Shown here one piece after another: positions 14,075 through 20,391 of a DNA stretch of 64,000 bases (position 1 is the stretch's first letter; every line of letters starts with the position of its first letter). The notes under the pieces are model-generated. The model was given only the letters and a program-made list of their open reading frames with translations, had not been told where the DNA came from and did not search any database. A program made the position numbers and the translations under genes. This DNA comes from Halorubrum salsamenti (GTDB taxonomy: Archaea; Halobacteriota; Halobacteria; Halobacteriales; Haloferacaceae), in assembly GCF_007671685.1 (NCBI RefSeq), contig NZ_VCNL01000003.1, forward strand, positions 62,001 through 126,000, written 5' to 3'.

Positions 14075-14090
14075 TTTAGGCTAGCCTAAA
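14075..14090. promoter_or_regulatory. iron-box-like operator, operon II proximal site
   Basis: TTTAGGCTAGCCTAAA, a perfect 16-base palindrome five bases upstream of the ATG at 14071 and downstream of the TATA element, so over the expected transcription start. Matches the sites at 14111, 18587, 18623, 19890, 20376 and 52677. Confidence 0.85.
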
Positions 14091-14110
14091 CAATTAAAAT
14101 CGTTCCGATC

Positions 14111-14126
14111 TTTAGGTCGGCCTAAA
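14111..14126. promoter_or_regulatory. iron-box-like operator, operon II distal site
   Basis: TTTAGGTCGGCCTAAA, upstream of the TATA element. Centre-to-centre distance to the proximal site is 36 bases, identical to the pair in front of operon I. Confidence 0.85.
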
Positions 14127-15128: not shown

Positions 15129-16301
15129 TCAGAGCTCACCCATGTTCTGCTGCCGCCGCATCAGGTACAGGAAGTACGGGCCGCCGATCAGCCCGGTGAC
15201 GATCCCGACCGGGATCTGCGAGTCCGCGCCCGTGATCACGCCCATTCCGAGGCGCGCGCCCACGTCGGCCGCGACCATCAGCGCCGGGCCGACGAACAGG
15301 CAGCCCACGATCACCCGCTTGTAGTCGCTGCCGACGAGGTTCCGGACCATGTGGGGGACGATCAGCCCCACGAAGCTGACGATCCCCGCCACCGCGATGC
15401 TGGCTGCCGCCGCCAGCACGGCGACGCCGGAGAGCGCGAACCGGACCCTCTCGATCGACATCCCCAGCGACTTCGCCGTCTGCTCGCCGAGGAGGAGGAG
15501 GTTCAGCTGCCGCGACCCCGCGAGCGATAACGCCACCGCCGCGACCGTCCACGGGAGCGCCATCCGGACCTGCTCCCAGTCGGTCCCCGTCAGCGACCCC
15601 GTCGTCCACTGGATCGCCGACTGGACGACACCGATGTCGTTCGCGAAGAAGAACAGCCCCGTCTGGAGGCTGTTGAAGACGGTCCCGACGATCACGCCCG
15701 CGAGCACGAGCCGGACCGGGCTCGTCCCGTTCTTCCACGCGATGGCGTAGACGACCAGGAACGCGACCGCGCCGCCGAGCGCCGCGATCAGTGGGAGGAA
15801 CGCCGAGAGCCCCCCGAACACCACGAGCGTCAGCAGGATCATCAGCCCCGCGCCCGAGGAGACGCCGAGGATGAACGGGCTCGCCAGCTCGTTCCTGGTG
15901 ACCGCCTGGAAGATGGCCCCCGAAATTCCGAGGTTCATTCCGACGATGGCGGCCACGAACACCCGCGGGAGCCGGATGTTCCAGACGATGAGCGTCCCGT
16001 GCGCCAGCTCGGGCAGCTCCCCCTGAAAGCCGGTGATCGAGCGCATCAGTCCCTCGCCGACGACGAAGTTCAACAGCCAGCGGGGGTCGAGGAGGACCGC
16101 GGGATCGAGGACGGCGCGCCACGCCTCGCCGACCGTCATCGAGTACGCGCCGAAGCTCACCTGCACGAGCCCGCCGGCGACGACGACCGCGACGCTGGCG
16201 AGCGCGACCGAGACCAGCTTCGGATCGAACAGCCACCCGATCCGGCCCTCCGACGCCCGGCGCGCGGCGCTCTCACCGGCGACCGACCCCCCGCCGCTCA
16301 T
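15129..16301 (-). CDS. FecCD-family iron-siderophore ABC permease (operon I)
   Basis: 390 residues with about nine to ten hydrophobic helices, the FecCD/BtuC pattern. VWNIRLPRVFVAAIVGMNLG is the conserved early motif, and the EAA-like coupling segment is near VGLIVPHMVRNLVGSDYKRV. Start at the ATG at 16301, which overlaps the stop of the FAD oxidoreductase by ATGA and has a good Shine-Dalgarno-like GGAGGGGG just upstream; the reading frame extends further upstream but only as antisense-like low-complexity sequence. Single membrane subunit, so probably a homodimer in the transporter. Confidence 0.92.
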   Translation of the reverse strand: MSGGGSVAGESAARRASEGRIGWLFDPKLVSVALASVAVVVAGGLVQVSFGAYSMTVGEAWRAVLDPAVLLDPRWLLNFVVGEGLMRSITGFQGELPELAHGTLIVWNIRLPRVFVAAIVGMNLGISGAIFQAVTRNELASPFILGVSSGAGLMILLTLVVFGGLSAFLPLIAALGGAVAFLVVYAIAWKNGTSPVRLVLAGVIVGTVFNSLQTGLFFFANDIGVVQSAIQWTTGSLTGTDWEQVRMALPWTVAAVALSLAGSRQLNLLLLGEQTAKSLGMSIERVRFALSGVAVLAAAASIAVAGIVSFVGLIVPHMVRNLVGSDYKRVIVGCLFVGPALMVAADVGARLGMGVITGADSQIPVGIVTGLIGGPYFLYLMRRQQNMGEL

Positions 16302-17272
16302 CGCGCCCCCTCCGCGTACGCGGCGATATCCTCGTCGTCCATCGCGTCGAGCAGCGCCTCGGCGCCGTGCGCGTCGACGACGGCGTCCGGGTCGAGGTGA
16401 CCGGCGAGCGCGCGCCGGCCCTCGGCCGCCCGCGCCTCCGCCTCGTCGGCGTCGACGTACGCCGACAGCGCCGAATCGATCGCCGCCTCGCGGACACGGG
16501 AGAACCGCTCCGCGTCCGGATCGACGGGGGCGTCGGCGTGTCGTTCGTCGAACCACTCGACCCAGCGCTCGCGGTCGGCCCACTCCTCGTCGCGCTCGGC
16601 CTCGCGGCGCACCCAGTCGACGCCCTCGGCCGCCGCGGGCCACCAGCCGTCCGCGATCCGCGCGTCCGTGACGACCCGGCGGGCGACGCGGGCGCCGCGT
16701 CCGGCCGCCGTGACCGCCTGTCGGTCGGCCTCGGAGGGAGAGGCGACGTAGAGCCCCTCGACCGGCGTCGTCCCGTCGGGATCGGCGTACTCCCGGTCGA
16801 AGTGCTCGTGGACCTCGCCGCCGTGGTCGTGGGTCTCGAACATCGCCGCGTCGTCGTCGAGGCCGCGGAGGTACTCGCCGTCGTACCGGGTCGCCGCCAC
16901 CACGCGTCGGGCGGTGACCGGCTCGCCCTCCTGCGGGGTGACGCGGAAGCGCGTCTCCTCCCCGTCCTCATGCCGCCGTTCGACCGACTCGACGAGGTCG
17001 TCGACGAGCGCGCCGCCCGCGCGGTCGACGTGGTCGTGCAGGAGGTCGTAGAACGTCTCGACGTCGATCCCGGCCGGGAAACCGAGGTAGTTCCCGAGGT
17101 GCGCACAGCGCGCGATCGACGACCGACCGCGGTCGAACACGGCGACGTCGCCCCCCTCGCGGGCGAGGAAGACGGCGGCCGAGCAGCCGGCGGGACCGCC
17201 GCCGACCACGACCGCGTCGTAGTCGACCTCCCCGGCGGCCTCGTCGAGGTCGAGGTCGAGGTCGTCGCTCAT
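16298..17272 (-). CDS. FAD-dependent oxidoreductase, iron operon I
   Basis: 324 residues. VVVGGGPAGCSAAVF (Gly24-Gly29) is the FAD-binding Rossmann motif, followed by CAHLGNYLGFPAGID, equivalent to the same block in the paralogue at 10415-11263. No CxxC active site. The C-terminal part (EEWADRERWVEWFDERH and DEAEARAAEGRRALAGH) is a helical extension absent from the shorter paralogue. ATG at 17272 overlaps the binding-protein stop by ATGA; stop overlaps the permease start the same way. Being tucked between binding protein and permease genes, it probably acts on the imported iron chelate, e.g. by reduction; this is inference. Confidence 0.82.
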   Translation of the reverse strand: MSDDLDLDLDEAAGEVDYDAVVVGGGPAGCSAAVFLAREGGDVAVFDRGRSSIARCAHLGNYLGFPAGIDVETFYDLLHDHVDRAGGALVDDLVESVERRHEDGEETRFRVTPQEGEPVTARRVVAATRYDGEYLRGLDDDAAMFETHDHGGEVHEHFDREYADPDGTTPVEGLYVASPSEADRQAVTAAGRGARVARRVVTDARIADGWWPAAAEGVDWVRREAERDEEWADRERWVEWFDERHADAPVDPDAERFSRVREAAIDSALSAYVDADEAEARAAEGRRALAGHLDPDAVVDAHGAEALLDAMDDEDIAAYAEGAR

Positions 17273-18582
17273 TCCGAATCACCGGCGACTATCTCCGCGA
17301 CTCGGCCGCGGTCGAAGAGGCGCTCGGACTCGGGGATCTCGGGGTAGCCGTCGCCGAGTTCGTAGGCCGGCCACTCGCCGAACCGCTCGGGGAACAGCTG
17401 TTTGGCGGTCATCTCGATCTGGAAGAGGTTCATGATCGGGCCCTGTACCGGGTTCCCCGAGGGGTAGAACCGGTCGTTCTCGATCGCGGAGAGCTCGCCG
17501 GCGACGGGGTGGTCGGCGAGCTCCTCGCGGACGCCGGCCACGTCGTAGTAGGACTCGACCCCGTACTGGTGTAAGATTACGTCGGGGTCGACCTCCAGCA
17601 GCTGTTCGTGGTCGTAGGCGGTCTCGTAAGTCACGTCGTCGGCGCCGAACGCGTCGACCACGCCGAAGGGGCGCACGTGGGCGTTGGCGAACCCCGGGTC
17701 GTCGAGCCGCGAGGGGTAGTAGGTCCCGTCCATGTAGAGGAGCGTGCCGACGGCCGGGCGCTCCCCCTCCGGCGGCAGGTCCGCCTGCACCGTCTCGATC
17801 AGGCCGTCGTGGACCGACGAGAGCGCCTCGAAGCGCTCCGGCTCCCGAAACACGCCGGCGACTCGCTCGGCGATCTCCCAGAGGCCGTAGTACTCGTACC
17901 CGTCGCGACACGACTCCGGGGGCTCGGAGTTCCGGCGGCTGAACACGTTGCCGAACCACGGCGCGACGTTGTCGCGGACCTCCGCCACGTCGCCCTCGTC
18001 CCACCCCTCGAAGGAGGCGAACAGGCAGGGGTCCGCCAGGTGGAGGTCGGAGTCGAGCTCGTAGAGCAGCTCCCGGTCGACCGAGATCCCGTCGCCGGAG
18101 CCCGTGTTGAGCTGTCGGATCCCCTCCCGGTCGAACTCGACGCCGTCGAGCTCGGCGTAGTAGGCGTCGAGCGTGTTCCCGCCGGCGTCGGCGTCGAAGC
18201 CGAGCGAGTTCACCGCGTCGCCGTGGCCGAACGCGACCGCCATGTCCGCGTACAGGAGGCTGTAGACCATCACGTCCCCGGGAACCGTATCGAGCGTCAC
18301 TTCGCCGACCGGCGCCATCTCGACGGAGTACGAGCCCGCGGACCCGTCGCCGTCCGTCCCCTCGCCGTCGGAACCGGCCGGTCCTCCGGCCTCGGCGTCG
18401 TCCGATCCGTCGGTGCCGTCAGGGCCGCCGGAGCCGCCGTCCGAGCCGGGAGCGCCCGATCCCGCTCCGAGACATCCCGCGAGCAGTCCCGCCCCCGCGA
18501 CCGCGCCGCCGTACCTGATCGCGTTACGGCGCGTCGACGTGGTACGGCGCGTCGACGTGGTCCGGTCCGCGTGCTTTCCCAT
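17269..18582 (-). CDS. iron-siderophore-type ABC transporter substrate-binding lipoprotein (operon I)
   Basis: 437 residues, third paralogue in the island. Tat-type N-terminus (TRRNAIRYGGAVAGAGLLAGC) with lipobox, a Gly/Asp/Ser linker to about residue 75, then a binding-protein fold with VDPDVILHQYGVESYYD and ENDRFYPSGNPVQGPIMNLFQIEMTAKQL. The N-terminal STRRTTSTRR shows a small internal duplication (TTSTRR twice). First gene of operon I, transcribed to 14217. Two operators at 18587-18602 and 18623-18638 flank the TATA element. Confidence 0.88.
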   Translation of the reverse strand: MGKHADRTTSTRRTTSTRRNAIRYGGAVAGAGLLAGCLGAGSGAPGSDGGSGGPDGTDGSDDAEAGGPAGSDGEGTDGDGSAGSYSVEMAPVGEVTLDTVPGDVMVYSLLYADMAVAFGHGDAVNSLGFDADAGGNTLDAYYAELDGVEFDREGIRQLNTGSGDGISVDRELLYELDSDLHLADPCLFASFEGWDEGDVAEVRDNVAPWFGNVFSRRNSEPPESCRDGYEYYGLWEIAERVAGVFREPERFEALSSVHDGLIETVQADLPPEGERPAVGTLLYMDGTYYPSRLDDPGFANAHVRPFGVVDAFGADDVTYETAYDHEQLLEVDPDVILHQYGVESYYDVAGVREELADHPVAGELSAIENDRFYPSGNPVQGPIMNLFQIEMTAKQLFPERFGEWPAYELGDGYPEIPESERLFDRGRVAEIVAGDSE

Positions 18583-18586
18583 ATAG

Positions 18587-18602
18587 TTTAGGCCTCCCTA
18601 AA
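18587..18602. promoter_or_regulatory. iron-box-like operator, operon I proximal site
   Basis: TTTAGGCCTCCCTAAA, between the TATA element (ATTTAATG on the minus strand, about 18603-18612) and the ATG at 18582. Inverted hexamers match all other sites; the four-base spacer is free. Confidence 0.85.
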
Positions 18603-18622
18603 GCATTAAATTGCTTTCGAAT

Positions 18623-18638
18623 CTTAGGGAAGCCTAAA
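18623..18638. promoter_or_regulatory. iron-box-like operator, operon I distal site
   Basis: CTTAGGGAAGCCTAAA, 36 bases centre to centre from the proximal site, one mismatch to the consensus at the first base. Confidence 0.8.
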
Positions 18639-18764: not shown

Positions 18765-18780
18765 TTTAGGTCGTACGAAA
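18765..18780. promoter_or_regulatory. possible degenerate iron box upstream of dpsA
   Basis: TTTAGGTCGTACGAAA: the left half is perfect and the right half matches four of six bases (ACGAAA for CCTAAA). It lies about 56-71 bases before the dpsA start, upstream of the TATA-like elements. Confidence 0.35.
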
Positions 18781-18835: not shown

Positions 18836-19381
18836 ATGAACACGCAGAAGGAGACTCGGCAGCACGCCGGCACCGTCGAAGAGAACGCCCTCAGACTCGA
18901 ACCCGAGAAGGCGGAACAGATCATCGAGGCGCTGAACGTCGACCTCGCGGACGCGTACGTCCTCTACCACCAGCTCCACAAACACCACTGGAACGTCGAG
19001 GGCGCGGAGTTCCTCGACGTCCACGTGTTCCTCCAAGAGGTGTACGAGGACGTCGAGGCGGCCGCCGACGAACTCGCCGAGCGGCTGCAGGCGCTCGGCG
19101 GCGTGCCGCACGCCAGCATGACGACGCTCGCTGAGAACGCCACCGTCGAGGCGGAAGACGAGGACGTGTACGACGTCCGCACGTCGCTCGGGAACGACCT
19201 AGAGATGATGGGCGACATCATCGAGAGCTACCGGGAGCACATCGAGCTCGCGGAGGGCCTCGGCGACTACGCGACCGCGGAGATGCTCCGCGAGCAGCTG
19301 GAGGGGATCGAGGAGCACGCGCACCACATCGAGCACTACCTCGAGGACGACACGCTCGTCGTGGAGTCCGCGACGAAGTGA
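18836..19381 (+). CDS. dpsA: DNA-protecting ferritin-like protein DpsA
   Basis: 181-residue Dps/ferritin-superfamily protein. Dps dodecamers oxidise and store Fe(II) and shield DNA from peroxide damage; in Halobacterium DpsA is induced by iron and oxidative conditions. The inter-subunit ferroxidase ligands are visible in HKHHWNVEG (His50/His51), FLDVHVFLQEVYEDVE (His63, Glu68, Asp72). Four long helices account for the whole chain, and length fits the archaeal family. The upstream region is A/T-rich with TTTTAATATT and ACTTATAAG, two candidate TATA elements, and the degenerate iron box at 18765. Opposite orientation to operon I, with which it shares the 253-base gap. Confidence 0.96.
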   Translation: MNTQKETRQHAGTVEENALRLEPEKAEQIIEALNVDLADAYVLYHQLHKHHWNVEGAEFLDVHVFLQEVYEDVEAAADELAERLQALGGVPHASMTTLAENATVEAEDEDVYDVRTSLGNDLEMMGDIIESYREHIELAEGLGDYATAEMLREQLEGIEEHAHHIEHYLEDDTLVVESATK

Positions 19382-19400: not shown

Positions 19401-19712
19401 TTAACGAACGTCCGGCGCCGTCTGGTCGGTCCGACCCGGCAGCGTCACTTCGATTTCTAACTCCGGTTCGCCGACGCCCTCGTAGTCGACGTCGAGTTCC
19501 ACGGGCTCGCCGAACGCGAAGGGGAGCTCCCACTCCTCCGTCTCGATCCGGAGGTCGTCGCCGTCGCGGAGTTGCTCGCCGAGCGCGATCAGAAACTCGC
19601 CGGCCTCGCTCGCGTCAACCCGATACTCCTGTTCGAAGTTCCGACCCGCAATGACCGTCCGGTCGTCGTCCGTCGAGGACGCCGACCCGTCCGAGGGGGA
19701 TTCGTCCGTCAT
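19401..19712 (-). CDS. amphi-Trp domain protein
   Basis: 103 residues. The C-terminal two thirds (FEQEYRVDASEAGEFLIALG, then IETEEWELPFAFGEPVELDVDY and ELEIEVTL) match the amphi-Trp domain, a small beta-rich domain of unknown function named for a conserved Trp in an amphipathic strand. The first 18 residues are a disordered acidic/Ser leader. The ATG at 19712 comes one base after the stop of the small CxxC gene, so the two form an operon controlled by the iron box at 19890-19905. Role in iron stress is inferred from that operator. Confidence 0.8.
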   Translation of the reverse strand: MTDESPSDGSASSTDDDRTVIAGRNFEQEYRVDASEAGEFLIALGEQLRDGDDLRIETEEWELPFAFGEPVELDVDYEGVGEPELEIEVTLPGRTDQTAPDVR

Positions 19713-19713
19713 C

Positions 19714-19881
19714 TCACCGAGTCACGTCGACGACGTGGTCGCTCGCGATCCACCCGTCCGTGTTCTCGGACTCCATGAACACCGACCGGCCGGGACACCC
19801 CTCACAGACGGTGACTGACGGGTTCTGTTCGAATTCCGATTCGCGACGAGAGTCGGTGCGGGACCGGGCGCCTGCTGACAT
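19714..19881 (-). CDS. 55-residue CxxC protein, first gene of an iron-box operon
   Basis: Begins MSAGARSRTDSRRESEFEQN and contains VTVCEGCPGRSVF (Cys26, Cys29), then FMESENTDGWIASDHVVDVTR. The CxxC could bind a metal or undergo thiol-disulfide exchange; with only two Cys a full zinc ribbon would require dimerisation. The ATG at 19881 follows the operator by eight bases and a T-rich TATA element (TTTTTATTTT on the minus strand, about 19902-19912), a leaderless arrangement as in the other iron-box genes. Followed one base later by the amphi-Trp gene. I recall similar tiny proteins in other haloarchaea but no name. Confidence 0.75.
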   Translation of the reverse strand: MSAGARSRTDSRRESEFEQNPSVTVCEGCPGRSVFMESENTDGWIASDHVVDVTR

Positions 19882-19889
19882 TGAGAGTC

Positions 19890-19905
19890 TTTAGGTGGAC
19901 CTAAA
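19890..19905. promoter_or_regulatory. iron-box-like operator of the CxxC/amphi-Trp operon
   Basis: TTTAGGTGGACCTAAA, perfect hexamer pair, between the TATA element and the ATG at 19881. Confidence 0.85.
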
Positions 19906-19931
19906 ATAAAAAGGATGCGGTCGGCACCGAG

Positions 19932-20372
19932 TCACTCCGCGCGGCTCGGCGAGACGCCGAGGCCATCGGGACGGCCCTCGGCGTCGACGTCGAGGTCCTC
20001 GAACAGCAGGTGGGCGAGCCGTTCGGCGACCTCGGGACTGATCAGTCCGGCCATCTCCATCGCCTCGCGCTCGTGCGCGTCGAGGTCGAGTACGTCGCGG
20101 AAGAACCACGAGAGCGCGACGTACGTCTCGTGGAGATCGCTCGCGCGCTCCCGGCCGGTGTCGGTGAGCGTCACCCCCTCGTACGGCTCGCGAGCGACGA
20201 GCCCGTCGGCCGCGAGCCGCTGGAGCATCTCCGTCGTCGCCGCCGGAGAACGATCGAGCATCTCGGCGATCCGCCCGGGGGAGATCGGCGTCCCCGCCCG
20301 GTGTTCCGCGATGTACAGCGCGAGGAGGTACCGGACCCTCCGCGTGGAGCCCGGTTCGCCGACGTGCGCCAT
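19932..20372 (-). CDS. DtxR-family metal-dependent transcriptional repressor (Idr/SirR-like)
   Basis: 146 residues. N-terminal winged helix (TRRVRYLLALYIAEHRAGTPISPGRI, then LDRSPAATTEMLQRLAADGLVAREPYEGVTLT), followed by the dimerisation/metal domain with LHETYVALSWFFRDVLDLDAHEREAMEMAGLISPEVAERL. This matches iron- or manganese-sensing DtxR proteins; it lacks the C-terminal SH3-like domain, so it is the short type. Its own promoter carries TTTAGGTCTCCCTAAA at 20376-20391, which suggests autorepression, and the same dyad is on the iron-uptake operons. It is therefore the most likely regulator of the island, though haloarchaea carry several DtxR paralogues. Confidence 0.9.
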   Translation of the reverse strand: MAHVGEPGSTRRVRYLLALYIAEHRAGTPISPGRIAEMLDRSPAATTEMLQRLAADGLVAREPYEGVTLTDTGRERASDLHETYVALSWFFRDVLDLDAHEREAMEMAGLISPEVAERLAHLLFEDLDVDAEGRPDGLGVSPSRAE

Positions 20373-20375
20373 GAT

Positions 20376-20391
20376 TTTAGGTCTCCCTAAA
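20376..20391. promoter_or_regulatory. iron-box-like operator of the DtxR-family gene
   Basis: TTTAGGTCTCCCTAAA immediately before the ATG at 20372 and downstream of AAATATAAAT (20391-20400), so repressor binding would cover the transcription start. Confidence 0.85.

Follow-up and report, generated by a model that had tools for sequence, protein, structure and literature searches.

A small haloarchaeal protein with a predicted iron-repressed promoter, encoded beside the ferritin gene dpsA, as a candidate accessory partner of DpsA

We propose, as a tentative reading that we hold at somewhat below an even chance, that a 55-residue haloarchaeal protein is an iron-repressed accessory partner of the DpsA mini-ferritin, with the release of stored iron as the likeliest step. 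The features from which the proposal starts can be read in the DNA and the encoded proteins: an iron box, its position and its conservation, linkage to dpsA, a promoter element that dpsA shares with a paralog of the small gene, and the occurrence of Cys or His at residue 26. Binding to DpsA, contact with a metal and release of iron are what we infer from them. The gene lies in the window (the whole 64,000-nucleotide stretch of Halorubrum salsamenti DNA analyzed), where the following features bear on the argument.

17269-18582, minus strand: iron-transport binding protein gene, with twin iron boxes upstream
18588-18601 and 18624-18637, no strand assigned: twin iron boxes preceding the 17269-18582(-) gene, which is divergent from dpsA
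18765-18780, plus strand: dpsA-type element TTTAGG-N5-CGAAA, 71 bases before the dpsA ATG and upstream of the TATA
18836-19381, plus strand: dpsA, encoding a ferritin-like DNA-protection protein (NF041388, 285 bits) and facing the operon tail to tail
19401-19712, minus strand: amphi-Trp protein, 103 codons, the optional second gene of the operon
19714-19881, minus strand: small protein, 55 amino acids, a sub-threshold relative of Pfam DUF7331
19891-19904, no strand assigned: iron box of the small gene, an exact palindrome, -23 to -10 before the 55-residue protein's ATG
19903-19912, minus strand: TATA-like stretch TTTTTATTTT, directly upstream of the 19891-19904 box, read from sequence
19932-20372, minus strand: DtxR-type regulator (PF01325, 42 bits)
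20377-20390, no strand assigned: iron box of the DtxR-type regulator gene

On the minus strand the order is thus regulator (20372-19932), small protein (19881-19714) and amphi-Trp protein (19712-19401), with dpsA on the opposite strand. A single base separates the stop codon of the small protein from the amphi-Trp ATG, and the stop codons of dpsA and the operon are 19 bp apart. The first-pass annotation had described 19401-19905 as an iron box followed by a 55-residue CxxC protein and an amphi-Trp protein, and this description holds: the box is exact, both reading frames are real, and the second protein scores 44.7 bits against NCBIfam TIGR04354, above the cut-off of 31, while remaining below the gathering cut-off of Pfam PF20068 (18.2 versus 27 bits). 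Both proteins are under purifying selection, with a median dN/dS of 0.12 for the small protein and 0.19 for the amphi-Trp protein (28 pairs among eight Halorubrum sequences in either case).

The box at 19891-19904 reads TTAGGTGGACCTAA. The window contains seven exact TTAGG-N4-CCTAA sites, as against 0.04 expected in a search that permitted one mismatch (the expectation includes the mismatched sites), and none of 100 shuffles got to seven. The 3.67-Mb genome has 16 exact boxes and two matches to the reversed control pattern, and the box pattern was found in 57 of 59 related genomes. Elsewhere in the genome, boxes precede two further binding-protein genes of like kind along with genes for an SBP_bac_8 binding protein and a TOBE_2-containing ABC ATPase, as well as glycosyl-transfer genes and a Gluconate_2-dh3 gene; this is therefore an iron-uptake regulon that includes some genes of other types. 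Twin boxes 34-36 bases apart stand before three Peripla_BP_2-like lipoprotein genes (14076-14125, 18588-18637 and locus L154), whereas the small-protein gene and the regulator gene have one box each. Among named haloarchaeal loci of the small protein, taken as the best 80 of 160 confirmed loci (the pattern matched 187 stretches), 72 carry the exact box; its offset from the ATG, with start codons picked by protein match, is exactly -23 in 61 of these and -17 to -25 in the other 11. In addition to the exact box, some copies (L020, L025, L029, L085, L092, L101, L103 and L107; several are from Natrialbaceae) show a second one, TTAGG-N4-CCAAA, which is degenerate and lies upstream of the TATA, as if both types of control had been joined. 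The spacing of the box fits a leaderless transcript and, given the layout of archaeal promoters, a protein bound on it should block initiation. The iron repression that had been predicted from the operator is thereby well supported at the sequence level, by the exact box, its position and its conservation, with like boxes fronting uptake genes and the DtxR-type regulator; the direction of regulation and the leaderless start are probable. The haloarchaeal DtxR/Idr regulon is built in the same way, with an exact palindrome in the core promoters of the uptake genes and of the regulator gene; the difference is that here the box is predicted to control a ferritin-linked gene without an assigned function.

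The stable partner of the small gene, missed by the first-pass annotation, is the convergent ferritin gene dpsA. A convergent dpsA lies within 1.5 kb in 53 of the best 80 of 160 loci. Among the matches listed, 79 genomes are common to the order-wide searches for both genes (best 150 of each). No more than 2 kb separates the small gene from dpsA in 67 of them, with 66 pairs convergent and one in tandem; the median gap is 183 bp, and nine genomes have no dpsA within 5 kb. Across the order, 211 of 243 genomes have a profile homolog of the small protein; among the genomes of good quality the count is 183 of 205. By hand count over these 243, with genomes treated as independent of kinship, the protein is missing from 15 of 17 genomes without a dpsA match and from 17 of 226 with one (Fisher 2e-13). 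Some of the 17 are small and incomplete; at completeness of at least 90% and contamination of at most 5%, the protein is missing from 8 of 9 and from 14 of 196, respectively. One family (f17) accounts for most of the genomes that have dpsA and lack the protein. Adjacency alone could explain both the co-loss and the linkage. A second DpsA gene of the genome lies at C16:285763-286275 (L168); reading 3 kb around it revealed neither the iron box nor the dpsA-type element. In the window's iron transporter, the genes for the binding protein and the permease flank one at 16298-17272 that encodes a thioredoxin-reductase-like flavoprotein (51 bits to TIGR01292, far under the cut-off), possibly a ferric reductase.

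The other neighbors are less constant. In the same best 80 of 160 loci, the amphi-Trp gene directly follows the small gene in 34 and a DtxR-type regulator gene precedes it in 27; all three of amphi-Trp, dpsA and regulator occur together in 17 and none of them in 19. The pairing with the amphi-Trp protein, for which co-occurrence across haloarchaea had been suggested as a check, does recur, yet in a minority of loci, and as a general rule we reject the two proteins as a conserved unit. The genome encodes five amphi-Trp domain proteins (TIGR04354), of which the operon copy is distinct. The structure predicted for it is weak (pLDDT 71) and shows a single helix with four strands, a PDB fold search with the model gave no match at E<=0.001, the search for solved relatives returned two weak matches alone (E 0.27 and 0.29), and we found no literature on it.

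The dpsA promoter itself carries a different element. Within 60 bases, an exact iron box precedes none of 63 dpsA genes; extending the range to 350 bases finds one for 10 of them. The element TTTAGG-N5-CGAAA resembles an iron box with a changed right half, is situated upstream and not downstream of the TATA, and probably activates. In the H. salsamenti genome it occurs exactly twice, before dpsA and before a paralog of the small protein that lacks the iron box and sits on another contig; the reversed control has no occurrence. It is present in 31 of 61 dpsA promoters (the 63 without L077 and L087, whose promoters are truncated where the locus ends), at -68 to -72 and upstream of the TATA, and just ten others occur in the 1.6 Mb of those loci, both strands counted, five of them before box-less homologs. 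Across 59 genomes, 35 of 75 element sites precede a small-protein homolog, 19 precede dpsA and 21 lie elsewhere; within the genus (35 genomes, 53 sites) the corresponding numbers are 34, 15 and 4. Outside the genus 17 of 22 sites lie elsewhere, and the claim that the element ties dpsA to the paralog is weaker there. Three of the four in-genus sites lying elsewhere were fetched. Two adjoin a regulator of the same type where dpsA was not found (L162 and L163), one of the two elements preceding a CxxC protein, NifU-like as labeled by eye, with its own iron box; the third precedes a lipoprotein gene that also has its own iron box. The element-bearing paralogs face a dps gene tail to tail in 5 of 35 cases and have no dps within 1.5 kb in 30, and inspection by eye of the neighbors of the box-less paralog found nothing iron-related.

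The 55 codons of 19714-19881(-) include C26-x-x-C29 (CEGC) and the conserved core C/H26-E27..P30-G31..V34-F35.E37..N40.D42.W44-I45..D48. Across 83 non-redundant homologs, the residues N40, W44 and I45 never vary (core N-x-x-x-W-I), and P30, V34, F35, E37, D42 and D48 are kept at 90% or more. When these homologs are split by the exact box, 72 have it, and of these 49 carry Cys and 21 His at position 26 (70 of 72 together); among the 11 without it, Ser occurs there in six and Cys in one. Alternation of Cys and His at a single fixed site is what a metal ligand typically shows, though one conserved ligand position alone does not make a metal site. On a tree of the 45 linked DpsA proteins, built by a quick method with 20 of 42 inner branches open, the Cys/His state changes four times, at least two of these changes being forced by well supported branches. 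Position 29 is most commonly Arg (27 of 72 boxed homologs, as against 21 with Cys), and both cysteines are present in just 18 of 72; the conserved pair by which a CxxC chaperone or a zinc knuckle would be recognized is not found, and we rejected the CxxC as a defining feature of the protein. The predicted structure is weak (pLDDT 66, pTM 0.39), with a hairpin of residues 23-27 and 33-37 as its sole feature, and no solved relatives were found at E<=10.

The small protein resembles DUF7331 (PF24018) in length and has weak profile similarity to it, 60 of the 83 members matching at E<=0.01. Membership was rejected, as the protein scores 23 bits versus a gathering cut-off of 27, and the genome's full-scoring member (66 bits; C15:442995-443162, L166) is a different, distantly similar small protein without the C/H26, PG and D42-x-W-I of the family described here; the 3.2 kb read around its gene showed no iron box. 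Brz-type zinc-finger regulators of haloarchaea (PMC2253796) are likewise small, and some members of the present family also bear cysteines, but the family has no conserved zinc-knuckle pair. Homologs were found in 28 of 196 genomes of a phylum sample, all 28 in the one order. Our literature search found no description of the family, while an earlier listing within DtxR regulon studies is possible; the 2015 work of Leyn and Rodionov and that of Martinez Pastor et al. from 2024 may list the gene in a DtxR regulon. Haloferax volcanii has a member of the wider Pfam family (DUF7331). Other Haloferax species show the order regulator, small gene, dpsA (L049-L052, L054 and L056), and we take HVO_0536 to be dpsA of H. 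volcanii. Since idr is HVO_0538 according to a passage of PMC11349517, the Haloferax gene order makes HVO_0537 the likely ortholog of the small gene.

In the mechanism that we propose, the metal-loaded DtxR-type repressor would occupy the box between TATA and start when iron is plentiful, keeping the small gene off while dpsA stores iron. As iron falls, the repressor would depart, and the small protein, often together with the amphi-Trp protein, would be made from a leaderless transcript. It would then act on DpsA or its iron, most likely by aiding reduction or release of the stored iron. The conserved W-I core could serve as a docking surface and the Cys/His26-Glu27 pair as a metal or contact site, and the protein may bind to DpsA, provide a way out for the iron, ferry Fe(II) off or bring in a reductase. 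The small gene would be expected to go up at low iron, opposite to DpsA; in Halobacterium salinarum DpsA decreases under iron deficiency, as stated in a passage of PMC3600143. The main text of the H. volcanii iron-starvation proteome paper makes no mention of dpsA, ferritin or HVO_0536. The small gene is predicted to be on at iron shortage and usually lies tail to tail with dpsA, which makes it a good candidate for encoding the as yet missing factor that would act on the iron store when iron runs out.

By analogy, we suggest that the protein shares the logic of the Bfd-bacterioferritin system and not its sequence. Bfd has a cysteine set for its 2Fe-2S cluster, whereas the 72 boxed homologs conserve one Cys/His position and no such set, so the small protein cannot be a Bfd or transfer electrons in the Bfd manner. 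Passages of PMC7762939 describe Bfd as a small protein with a 2Fe-2S cluster that is encoded beside the bacterioferritin gene and expressed differently from it, and iron remains locked in the store without Bfd, as part of PMC7760384 reports. As with Bfd (e.g. BfrB-Bfd of Pseudomonas aeruginosa), the small gene adjoins a ferritin gene, dpsA being within 2 kb in 67 of 79 genomes among the matches listed, and here it is predicted to be on in low iron. Unlike Bfd, the protein is archaeal, its presumed partner is a 12-mer Dps without heme and not a Bfr, and the two genes are convergent. A broader version, which we regard as doubtful, is a two-form Dps accessory system: one form, encoded tail to tail with dpsA, would serve at scarce iron as a Dps-iron release factor unrelated to Bfd, and the other, at least in Halorubrum, would be the paralog, co-expressed with dpsA by means of the dedicated element. 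A convergent-transcript switch might be added to this system.

The main rivals to a partnership with DpsA are a role as an iron sensor or buffer, mere neighborhood, and an effect of convergent transcription on dpsA. We consider it fairly unlikely that the protein is a small iron sensor, buffer or regulator, with Fe(II) held by Cys/His26 and acidic residues, that tunes DtxR-type repressors or feeds clients, dpsA being just a fellow iron gene. The near-constant Cys or His (70 of 72 boxed copies) and the DtxR-type gene just upstream in 27 of 80 loci (best 80 of 160) would suit such a role, but conservation covers a single Cys/His position, dpsA is a steadier neighbor than the regulator (53 versus 27 of those 80), and the rare element of the paralog is common to dpsA and not to the regulator. 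An inherited neighborhood is unlikely: the protein would belong to the iron-starvation response without a functional tie to DpsA, and the gene order would persist from an ancestor. Vertical retention is possible, given that all 28 phylum-sample matches fall in one order. Yet the tail-to-tail order is kept across most families while amphi-Trp and regulator come and go at the same place, and a paralog elsewhere in the genome has the rare element in common with dpsA.

Convergence itself may matter, if low-iron transcription from the boxed promoter enters the 3' end of dpsA and lowers its output in the manner of an excludon, with the role of the protein a separate matter. Among the matches listed, 66 of the 67 close pairs are convergent, and the stop-to-stop gap has a median of 19 bp where the amphi-Trp gene is present (28 loci) and of 150 bp where it is not (25 loci), so that the 3' ends of the operon and dpsA nearly or really overlap. 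We nevertheless judge this switch quite improbable, because the small protein is itself conserved under purifying selection and the family is kept without convergence in the 30 of 35 element-bearing paralogs that have no nearby dps. Least of all do we expect the CxxC metal chaperone or iron-sulfur cluster helper that the first-pass annotation had in mind: the window's own protein has both CEGC and an iron box, but the scarcity of the full cysteine pair among boxed homologs and the prevalence of Arg at position 29 speak strongly against that function.

A small protein that is present nearly throughout the order, is predicted to be made at low iron and is encoded next to dpsA gives laboratory work in Haloferax or Halobacterium a definite target for deletion, as well as a protein that can be combined with iron-loaded DpsA. 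The rare element common to dpsA and the paralog also provides a way into the question of how expression of an archaeal ferritin gene is turned on.
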